DNA of 64,000 nt from an uncultured Clostridia bacterium. GTDB taxonomy: Bacteria > Bacillota > Clostridia > Oscillospirales > Acutalibacteraceae. The DNA lies in contig CANQVS010000001.1 of NCBI GenBank assembly GCA_947627345.1, forward strand, positions 62,001 through 126,000, written 5' to 3'. A model generated the notes under the pieces. It ran no database searches and was not told the DNA's origin. It saw nothing but the letters and a program-made list of their open reading frames with translations. Every line of letters begins with the position of its first letter. Position 1 is the stretch's first letter. Positions 44,755-61,868 of this stretch are shown here, piece after piece. A program made the position numbers and the translations under genes.

Positions 44755-44783
44755 TTGATTTTTTACGTCTCTTGCTATATAAT
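44755..44783 (+). promoter_or_regulatory. Sigma-A-like promoter of tRNA-Ser(GGA)
   Basis: TTGATT (44755-44760), 17-nt spacer, TATAAT (44778-44783). The expected start lies about ten bases before the tRNA. Confidence 0.65.
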
Positions 44784-44798
44784 ATTCAAGGTCGTTAT

Positions 44799-44891
44799 GC
44801 AGAGATGTCCGAGCTGGCCGAAGGAGCATGATTGGAAATCATGTATACGGTGAACGCCGTATCTGGGGTTCGAATCCCCATCTCTGCGCCA
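44799..44891 (+). tRNA. tRNA-Ser (anticodon GGA)
   Basis: A class II tRNA with acceptor stem GCAGAGA/TCTCTGC, discriminator G and encoded CCA (44889-44891). The anticodon loop TTGGAAA reads GGA and decodes UCU/UCC. A long variable arm (TACGG..CCGTA) is typical of serine tRNAs. The T-arm is GGGGTTCGAATCCCC. A terminator follows within four bases. Confidence 0.95.
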
Positions 44892-44894
44892 AAA

Positions 44895-44924
44895 AAAGAC
44901 ACCGAAAGGTGTCTTTATATTTTT
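44895..44924 (+). terminator. Terminator of tRNA-Ser(GGA)
   Basis: AAAGACACC (44895-44903) pairs with GGTGTCTTT (44908-44916) around GAAA, followed by ATATTTTT. A second copy of the tRNA 3' end and this hairpin is found at 45060-45096. Confidence 0.9.
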
Positions 44925-44925
44925 G

Positions 44926-44941
44926 GAGATGGGGATTCGAA
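44926..44941 (-). repeat. Inverted copy of the tRNA-Ser(GGA) T-arm
   Basis: GAGATGGGGATTCGAA is a perfect 16-bp reverse complement of the tRNA segment at 44869-44884 (T loop, 3' T stem and acceptor start). It lies just beyond the terminator, so the inverted repeat encloses the tRNA 3' end and the terminator hairpin. Confidence 0.85.
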
Positions 44942-45032
44942 ACCGAGGGTTAAGAAAATGTCCCTGCGGGACATTTTTACCGAGGAGCGTTGATGAAACA
45001 TTTCCCCAAAACGTGAACACAAGGTGCGAGAT
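44942..45032 (+). repeat. tRNA-linked structured repeat, copy 1
   Basis: This 91-nt segment aligns without gaps to 61639-61729 on the other strand (78 of 91 bases equal). It holds a stem AAAATGTCCC-TGC-GGGACATTTT, an outer GG/CC pair set, and a conserved 3' half containing GAGGAGCGTTGATGAAACAT and ACGTGAACACAAGGT. It sits between an inverted T-arm and a second copy of the tRNA 3' end. Long reading frames crossing it on either strand are chance products of the tRNA and repeat sequence. Confidence 0.8.
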
Positions 45033-45059
45033 GAAGTTTTCTTTAAAAACAAGGTACCC

Positions 45060-45096
45060 TCTCTGCGCCAAAAAAGACACCGAAAGGTGTCTTTTT
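45060..45096 (+). repeat. Second copy of tRNA-Ser(GGA) 3' end and terminator
   Basis: TCTCTGCGCCA (45060-45070) repeats 44881-44891 exactly and is followed by the same GACACC-GAAA-GGTGTC hairpin with a better T5 tract. A trace of the inverted T-arm (GATTCGA) follows at about 45104-45110. It is a partial tRNA end, not a functional tRNA. Confidence 0.85.
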
Positions 45097-45233
45097 ATTT
45101 TTAGATTCGAGTAAATTTAATATTTCCTTATTAATTATGCTTGCATTATACAACGTTATTGTCTATATGCTCCATATACGGATTGCCATTATAAATGCTG
45201 TAAAGATTATTTTTGTACCACTCAAAATCTTCT

Positions 45234-61550: not shown

Positions 61551-61616
61551 TTCGAATCTCGCCTATATAAAAACAGAACGCTAATGCGTTCTGTTTTTTT
61601 GGCGGAGACGGCGAGA
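61551..61616 (-). repeat. Distal copy of tRNA-Ser(CGA) 3' end, terminator and inverted T-arm
   Basis: This segment repeats 61730-61796 with one T/G change and one missing A. It contains the inverted T-arm TTCGAATCTCGCC (61551-61563), the ACAGAACGC/GCGTTCTGT hairpin (61573-61594) with a T7 flank, and TGGCGGAGACGGCGAGA (61600-61616), equal to the last 17 bases of the tRNA gene read on the plus strand. There is no complete tRNA here. Confidence 0.85.
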
Positions 61617-61638: not shown

Positions 61639-61729
61639 ATCTCGAACCTTGTGTTCACGTTTTGTGGAAATGTTTCATCAACGCTCCTCCCTAAAAATCG
61701 TCCGCAGGACGATTTTCTTAACGGTCGGC
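61639..61729 (-). repeat. tRNA-linked structured repeat, copy 2
   Basis: The minus-strand reading aligns without gaps to 44942-45032. The stem here is AAAATCGTCC-TGC-GGACGATTTT, with CC/GG as the outer pairs, so the base pairs differ from copy 1 while pairing is kept. The segment from GAGGAGCGTTGATGAAACAT to ACACAAGGT is the same except for one base. It lies downstream of tRNA-Ser(CGA) and its terminator, in the same order as copy 1. Confidence 0.8.
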
Positions 61730-61742
61730 TTCGAATCTCGCC
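61730..61742 (+). repeat. Inverted copy of the tRNA-Ser(CGA) T-arm
   Basis: TTCGAATCTCGCC is a perfect 13-bp reverse complement of 61790-61802 in the tRNA gene. It encloses the tRNA 3' end and terminator, just as at tRNA-Ser(GGA). Confidence 0.85.
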
Positions 61743-61752
61743 TATATAAAAA

Positions 61753-61774
61753 ACAGAACGCTAAGGCGTTCTGT
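61753..61774 (-). terminator. Terminator of tRNA-Ser(CGA)
   Basis: ACAGAACGC (61753-61761) pairs with GCGTTCTGT (61766-61774). On the minus strand it starts six bases after CCA and runs into TTTTT. Confidence 0.85.
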
Positions 61775-61779
61775 TTTTT

Positions 61780-61868
61780 TGGCGGAGACGGCGAGATTCG
61801 AACTCGCGGGGGATTGCTCCCTAACTGATTTCGAGTCAGCCCCGTTATGACCACTTCGATACGTCTCC
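61780..61868 (-). tRNA. tRNA-Ser (anticodon CGA)
   Basis: Acceptor stem GGAGACG/CGTCTCC, discriminator G and encoded CCA (complement of 61780-61782). The anticodon loop CTCGAAA reads CGA and decodes UCG. A long variable arm is present and the T-arm reads GCGAGTTCGAATCTCGC. It has its own promoter and terminator. Confidence 0.94.

Follow-up and report, generated by a model that had tools for sequence, protein, structure and literature searches.

Short hairpin units matched to their host tRNA genes in Clostridia, candidate mobile elements of tRNA 3' ends

Two structured units behind tRNA-Ser genes

The window (the whole 64,000-nucleotide stretch analysed here, from an uncultured Clostridia bacterium) carries two tRNA-Ser genes that are each followed by a structured repeat unit. 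Behind tRNA-Ser(GGA) (44799-44891, +; ARAGORN) we found, on the same strand, a terminator-like hairpin, T1 (44892-44924, assigned from the sequence), and a segment, a' (44926-44941), that is an inverted copy of positions -23 to -8 from the 3' end of this tRNA (16 nt, 0 mismatches). The adjoining 91-nt core (44942-45032, delimited by alignment to the second copy) includes the hairpin P1 with two flanking pairs (44947-44981, from covariation) and the conserved box GAGGAGCGTTGATGAA of the class A unit (44982-44997; alignments A2 and A3), the conservation of which is partly imposed by the search pattern in the alignment rows that do not come from the own genome. The unit closes with a tail (45057-45070) that repeats the last 14 nt of tRNA-Ser(GGA) with one mismatch, and with a second terminator-like hairpin, T2 (45071-45102), near-identical to T1.

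The second unit has the same order on the reverse strand, behind tRNA-Ser(CGA) (61780-61868, -; ARAGORN, Rfam RF00005): T1 (61745-61779), a' (61730-61742; tRNA positions -23 to -11, 13 nt, 0 mismatches), the core (61639-61729) with P1 and its two flanking pairs (61690-61724), a tail identical to the last 17 nt of the tRNA (61600-61616, 0 mismatches) and T2 (61565-61599). It is followed by another inverted copy, GGCGAGATTCGAA (61551-61563, -), with no core behind it, which is the remnant of a truncated second unit. At the Rfam gathering score, one tRNA and RNase P were the only matches over the window, with none over the repeats. Rfam searches over the units, run at E <= 1 for four loci and at E <= 0.1 for 12, returned weak sub-cut-off matches only; those to sX4 and isrK in locus L064 (E 0.07-0.09) overlapped the tRNA. 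A 101-aa reading frame antisense to tRNA and unit (44775-45080, -), which reads RDGDSNPRYGVHRIHDFQS, is very likely spurious. A short peptide behind GAGGAG..ATG was rejected by eye, its length and frame varying among copies.

The initial annotation had aligned the two cores without gaps over 91 columns with 13 differences, and our recount agreed: columns 1, 6, 7, 19, 20, 21, 29, 30, 31, 39, 40, 65 and 85 differ, ten of them forming five compensatory pairs (6-40, 7-39, 19-31, 20-30 and 21-29), and the two cores agree throughout the hairpin loop and the A/T stretch of its stem. Each core does adjoin a different tRNA-Ser gene, as had also been noted. The repeat proved longer than the core, which is the middle of a unit extending to both sides; that annotation did not yet include the copies, inverted and direct, of the particular tRNA, the duplication of its end, the many tRNA species involved or the cargo described below.

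Across the family, units of about 0.15-0.2 kb, often in tandem, read in the order tRNA with CCA, T1, a', P1, further hairpins, tail and T2. The inverted copy a' comprises the T-loop, the 3' strand of the T-stem and often part of the acceptor of the adjoining tRNA; P1 has the internal loop GTTAAG/TA; the tail is a direct copy of the tRNA 3' end, mostly its last 14, 16, 18 or 21-22 nt; and T1 and T2, before a' and after the tail, are both terminator-like hairpins.

Distribution, match to the host tRNA and pairing

The likeness of the two cores goes beyond chance. Blastn against the own assembly (1.83 Mb, 40 contigs) returned 24 rows, 22 of them at E <= 1e-5 and the window copies included, and a covariance model made from 39 copies and containing no tRNA gave 27 matches, 22 of them at E < 1e-15. 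Fifteen of these 22 strong copies lay no more than 700 nt behind a same-strand tRNA and two stood farther behind one, at 1.8 and 4.0 kb, with intervening genes; four had their upstream side within about 300 nt of a contig end, and the last (C3:26635) lay behind what appeared by eye to be a tRNA remnant. The host tRNAs in this genome were Ser(GGA), Ser(CGA), Ser(GCT), Lys, Gly, Gln, Pro (two), Leu and Met, so serine is an incidental host: the proposed linkage to tRNA genes stood, and its tRNA-Ser part did not, with 27 tRNA species among the 73 adjacent copies considered below. Among the own-genome tRNAs inspected, Cys, Asn, Thr (two), Tyr, Pro(GGG), Arg(CCG), Met (one), Gln(CTG) and Ala(CGC) had no unit.

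Further copies were thus present in the genome, and they were present in relatives too. An exact-pattern search of a genome contig collection gave 36 stretches, 29 of them titled Ruminococcus or uncultured Clostridia and at least two of them chance matches (L029, L035), and the complete chromosome of Ruminococcus sp. FMBCY1 holds three tandem copies behind tRNA-Arg. Counting the own genome each time, matches to the covariance model turned up in 46 of the 295 order-level genomes searched (E <= 1e-3); at E <= 1e-4 the figures were 54 of 200 for the family and 22 of 291 for the class, a patchy occurrence at each level. Many matches outside the genus span P1 only. In a set of 29 loci from 29 other genomes of the order, 11 lay within 100 nt behind a same-strand tRNA and three at 169-244 nt behind a tRNA. 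Full units keep the tRNA linkage in this wider set, whereas P1 alone also occurs away from tRNAs, dispersed or in tandem and with other flanks (L205-L211 in genome G332, L212-L215 in G435, L134, L136 and L148); all seven loci fetched from G332 are dispersed repeats with no tRNA, and G435 has dispersed P1 repeats at four loci. IMG/VR searched with the exact pattern, and phage and plasmid records searched with blastn, gave no match, and no description of these elements was found in the literature searched, within the terms used.

Two side observations belong here. At about 1500-1600 in L085 and L088, an element of P1 and P2 lies behind a gene named by its sequence as triosephosphate isomerase, and the far side of the element carries a near-copy of the 3' end of this gene. 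In L075 (1105-1187, -), a Gut-1 match (43.6 against a gathering score of 50 bits) sits directly behind a tRNA and terminator; this Gut-1-like RNA was rejected as a family member, being a different repeat.

A script scan of the fetched loci revealed 184 P1-like hairpins, 73 at most 130 nt behind a same-strand tRNA, 25 at 130-700 nt and 86 elsewhere, a set that is a biased sample with some chance matches because the loci were fetched for matching. After a length filter (179 hairpins), those within 130 nt behind a tRNA were on the same strand in 73 cases and on the opposite strand in one. For the 73 adjacent copies, the tail scored 15.7 against its own tRNA and 6.3 against tRNAs for other amino acids, the own tRNA being best in 67 of 73; the inverted copy scored 14.0 against 7.4, with the own tRNA best in 37 of 73, a lower share that is due in part to the T-loop being common to all tRNAs. 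Many copies have an a' that is fully complementary to the tRNA along 13-18 nt. A tail was present in 65 of the 73 and not found in eight; it started at -14 in 20, -16 in 6, -18 in 16, -21 or -22 in 14, and elsewhere in 9. The likeness to the tRNA locus ended within one base of the tRNA end in 28 of the 65 and continued 2-78 nt beyond it in 37. In each class the inverted copy spans the start of the tail. Compared with a library of 104 tRNA ends, a' and tail were concordant in 95 units, discordant in four (4 of 99 decidable units), undecided in 75 and too short in five. T1 and T2 were often alike, and different at several loci, for example L016 and L019.

We then evaluated the fold. RNAalifold on 33 copies, 23 of which had been picked by a pattern with fixed bases in the 3' arm of the hairpin and downstream of it, gave 15 consensus pairs, eight with both sides changed in at least one copy. 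True pairing of the P1 arms exceeded all 2000 between-copy permutations in each of three groups (30, 17 and 17 copies), and stem changes in the further copies were compensatory, which bears out a repeat family constrained in its pairing. P3, the variable hairpin abutting the tail, also exceeded the permutations in the one group tested, as did P0, the pairing of a' with the tail, in the latter case because both partners are copied from one tRNA. A long P2 stem suggested for class A by single folds was rejected (594 of 2000 in the permutation test). Consensus folds of the B and C groups are multi-stem structures closed by P0. Overall, the earlier reading of a structured, pairing-constrained and tRNA-linked repeat is supported.

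The initial annotation had not chosen between an RNA and a DNA hairpin. Across the six inner pairs of P1 in 124 distinct hairpins (744 cells) we counted 722 Watson-Crick pairs, 8 G-U pairs and 14 mismatches, against 793, 50 and 4 in the 847 cells that 121 tRNA acceptor stems of these loci provided; G-U pairs were thus rarer and mismatches commoner in P1 (Fisher p 1.2e-7), with a possible selection bias, as the P1 copies came from pairing-aware searches that allowed one mismatch and counted G-U as a pair. RNA helices tolerate G-U pairs, and their rarity in P1 therefore favours a DNA fold; the evidence leans towards P1 acting as DNA rather than as RNA.

The same measure weighs against an account in which the unit is a structured RNA of the tRNA locus, made by read-through past T1, with the inverted copy pairing to the T-arm or the tail. 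Such an RNA would act as a switch that tunes tRNA maturation or be processed into a small RNA, in the manner of rtT RNA from the tyrT operon of E. coli. The fixed orientation of the units to the tRNA, the perfect complementarity of a', the covariation and the P0-closed consensus folds would all suit it. Besides the scarce G-U pairs and commoner mismatches in P1, a terminator ahead of each unit, the patchy presence between tRNAs and between close relatives, and arrays interrupted by accessory genes argue the other way, and we regard this account as unlikely.

Insertion sites, cargo and candidate enzymes

One locus revealed an empty and an occupied site. At tRNA-Pro(CGG) in genome G457, CCTGTCACCTCGACCA is directly followed by GTATGAGTGTTCATAACGG; in the relative L026 the matching tRNA end is followed by a unit, a second TGTCACCTCGACCA and then the shared flank, so that the occupied site is set apart from the empty one by the unit and by 14 bp of duplicated tRNA end. 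The flanks agree at 97% over 34 bases and the tRNA 3' halves at 88%. The unit in L026 is rearranged, with a' and the 5' half of P1 absent. This was the single clean pair among 149 distinct tRNA ends compared in the fetched loci; L038 and L162, considered as a second pair, were rejected since L162 holds a unit with a damaged tail. At a divergent Pro/Gln tRNA pair, G000 has a unit at Pro only and G457 at Gln only. A direct repeat of the tRNA 3' end flanks the insert at the occupied counterpart of the empty site and in the adjacent copies with a tail.

A mosaic array behind tRNA-Ser(GCT) (L025, 5336-6864, -; CAMHQC010000006.1) is a single case in which the second unit combines a Ser(GCT) inverted copy with a Gln(TTG) tail starting exactly at the junction; after that tail come a Gln-like partial unit and then a 204-aa gene in a P1 loop. 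Joining at that junction would give such a Ser/Gln mosaic.

On balance, we lean modestly towards the units being short non-autonomous mobile DNA elements that insert at tRNA 3' ends. A recombinase acting in trans would recognise the element as a folded single strand of DNA, a proposal made because P1 varies freely in sequence yet keeps its pairing, and because it has few G-U pairs. The element would be joined at the junction of core and tail inside the T-arm, and its own terminator would take the place of the displaced one, so that the tRNA would stay functional. The inverted copy would pair with the tail (P0) across the junction and, spanning it, may serve as a guide or splint. Imperfect palindromes can be corrected by template switching, and this is one possible way in which the inverted copy might come to match a new tRNA.

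Several observations stand against mobility of this kind: the one clean pair has a damaged occupied copy, tyrosine recombinases occur in unit-bearing and unit-free genomes alike with no enzyme found, IMG/VR searched by exact pattern and phage and plasmid records searched by blastn gave no copies, some cargo looks like separate transposons, the class A P2 stem fails its permutation test, and a' and tail disagree in four of the 99 units that could be decided. In 37 of 65 tailed copies, moreover, the likeness continues past the tRNA end, which also fits tandem duplication. Passive local duplication, with slippage or fold-back at terminators and T-arms and the core spread by homologous recombination with no dedicated mobility, would account for this likeness of up to 78 nt, for the frequent resemblance of T1 and T2, for a tail fold-back in L227 and for the common tandem spacing near 180-190 bp. 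It is less readily squared with tail starts that cluster sharply and independently of the tRNA, with T1 and T2 that are unlike at several loci, with related cores at 27 tRNA species and with the clean empty site, and we give it rather little credence.

The position of the inverted copy, which spans the insertion junction in each class and follows the tRNA, together with the multi-stem fold, would also be expected if the unit encoded a guide RNA, with the inverted copy as the guide, for a transposase of, for example, the IS110 type. A low G-U content speaks against RNA-guided insertion, as does the point that a guide alone would not be rewritten at a new tRNA, and we consider it improbable.

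Returning to the mobile-element reading, arrays of units would work like integron cassette arrays anchored on tRNA genes. Most units are empty and contain no genes, an integrase gene included; genes lie between units in at least eight arrays. Cargo comprised an N6 DNA methylase with a type I specificity subunit (G000 C17), an AIM24 protein (G000 C6), a Fic protein (G422), an HTH protein with one protein that had no match (G264), an HTH-AAA_28-CYTH protein with another lacking a match (G480), a type II restriction-modification pair made up of an N6_N4 methylase and an MjaI-type restriction endonuclease (G153), a 238-aa protein with no match (G164) and, in the P1 loop of L025, the 204-aa protein with no Pfam match. 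No recombinase was found among nine plus five cargo proteins scanned, the remaining frames being judged by eye. Cargo occurs in both orientations, which argues against an intron.

Three loci (L232, L249 and L227) read unit, tail, T2, cargo, T1 and a'; the second unit of L249 has no core, and L228 shows no evident T1 ahead of its second unit. In L130 the cargo interrupts a unit. In L129, L229 and L025 the cargo sits in the loop of P1 or in a terminator, has imperfect inverted repeats at its borders (by eye) and looks like separate transposons. The 204-aa gene of L025, for its part, lies between the inverted repeats GGACACACT..ATAAAG, and gene and junction recur in L051; its description as an insertion sequence was dropped, the insert being this gene with inverted repeats recognised by eye. 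In L129 and L229, where the cargo is inside the unit's terminator hairpin, it is as if a gene-carrying transposon family preferred hairpin loops.

A 7.8-kb insert at tRNA-Pro(GGG) of G439 was rejected as unit cargo. It is a prophage (L251, 1900-9460) with an integrase, a repressor and a primase-like protein, gene functions assigned mostly by eye, and it has left an old unit behind the displaced tRNA end.

Regarding the enzyme, we compared eight P1-rich genomes (G000, G457, G237, G164, G153, G332, G480 and G439) with eight unit-free ones, defined as having no model match at E <= 1e-3 in the order search, for four classes at E <= 1e-5: Y1 transposase, RVT_1, Cas1 and tyrosine recombinase. G332 had been chosen by its number of model matches, and is P1-rich with seven fetched loci that hold no tRNA units. 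Y1 transposases occurred in 5 of 8 P1-rich and 2 of 8 unit-free genomes, RVT_1 in 1 (G457) and 2, and tyrosine recombinases in all eight of both; the P1-rich genomes held one Cas1 fragment. Leaving out G332, the P1-rich counts are Y1 4 of 7, reverse transcriptase 1 of 7, Cas1 fragment 1 of 7 and tyrosine recombinase 7 of 7. Reverse transcription was rejected because RVT_1 is missing from seven of the eight P1-rich genomes, and a casposase because none of them has an intact Cas1. Intact Cas1 was found in four of the eight unit-free genomes; given the small sample, this difference may mean nothing.

Y1 transposase was likewise rejected, as Y1_Tnp is absent from G237, G439 and G153 and both matches in G000 hold stop codons. 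These absences bear on a further alternative, in which the units are REP-like palindromes moved by a Y1 (RAYT/IS200-type) transposase with tRNA ends as a preferred target. P1 on its own does behave as a dispersed palindromic repeat in G332 and G435, as such palindromes would. The units nevertheless show 14-22-bp duplications, which to our knowledge Y1 elements do not leave; this alternative is already disfavoured and seems to us highly improbable.

The tyrosine recombinase is therefore the only one of the four classes present throughout, yet it is universal. The protein common to five unit-bearing genomes inspected is XerC-related and scores below the NCBIfam XerC and XerD cut-offs, and a homologue occurs in unit-free G199 as well. 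The tyrosine recombinase matches in G439 are the prophage integrase and the XerC-related protein, and those in G153 the XerC-related protein and a fragment. One XerC-related protein each in G000, G164, G153, G237 and G439 scored 80-98 bits against the integron integrase model TIGR02249, below its cut-off of 265. From these sequences, a host Xer-type protein is a possible candidate for the enzyme.

Relation to known elements

By analogy, the units would work like a tRNA-targeted mini-island or an integron cassette; we file them as neither, because the defining integrase was not found with them. They share with integron cassettes and CALIN arrays (the latter described in PMC11389934) the fixed orientation and the lack of a recombinase inside the array, and possibly the accessory genes between sites, some of which look here like separate transposons. 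As with attC, the putative recombination site of the unit is apparently kept by fold rather than by sequence. Unlike attC, it includes an inverted copy matched to the tRNA and terminates in a tail from that tRNA, and unlike integrons, the units are anchored on many tRNA genes instead of attI, are mostly empty, and come with no scanned protein that reaches the integron-integrase cut-off.

Islands and prophages that enter tRNA genes by tyrosine integrases similarly produce a direct repeat from the tRNA 3' end and keep the tRNA whole. The units differ in their size of about 0.15-0.2 kb, in having no integrase, in the additional inverted T-arm copy and in the presence of one family at many different tRNAs of one genome; the ordinary prophage of G439, with its own integrase and longer repeat, is unlike them in the same sense. 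Casposons target tRNA genes and leave duplications near 14 bp, but they are kilobase elements with Cas1, of which no intact copy exists in the eight P1-rich genomes. Tycheposons are mobile, tied to tRNA genes, kilobase-sized and equipped with their own genes, whereas the unit is gene-less. The rtT repeats of the E. coli tyrT operon, about 178 bp long, lie behind a tRNA and each contain a copy of its 3' end, as the units do; rtT is confined to tRNA-Tyr, no Rfam model matches the unit, and we know of no inverted T-arm copy in rtT.

Tycheposons are also named in PMC11389934, and MITEs are described there as elements of ca. 300 nt without genes. The units resemble MITEs, REP and BIME sequences in being short, gene-less, multi-copy and palindromic, and in the dispersal of P1 away from tRNAs. 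They differ in that their tRNA-matched ends change with the host tRNA, in duplications of 14-22 bp at fixed tRNA positions and in the absence of a matching transposase from the searches made. With regard to MITE-type terminal repeats, the unit ends can pair (P0) but are tRNA-derived, and no autonomous copy occurred among the fetched loci. The inverted copy, which spans the tail start, also recalls the guide of a group I intron spanning ligated exons, as a resemblance only.

We put forward more tentatively, as something we doubt more than we believe, that the units represent a separate class of mobile gene-cassette system, with folded single-stranded sites, a guide-like inverted copy across the insertion junction, a recombinase acting in trans that reads both fold and guide, and many tRNA loci per genome as landing sites for defence and other accessory genes across Clostridia. 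Transfer RNA genes are long-known hot spots for mobile DNA, and an element that enters one particular tRNA usually depends on an integrase dedicated to that sequence. One family that matches many tRNAs of one genome needs a new targeting rule or a rewriting of the matching part. The unit, the empty site and the junction are defined substrates with which to seek the enzyme, and such a system could give gut Clostridia a cassette-like way of gaining genes, for example restriction-modification sets.
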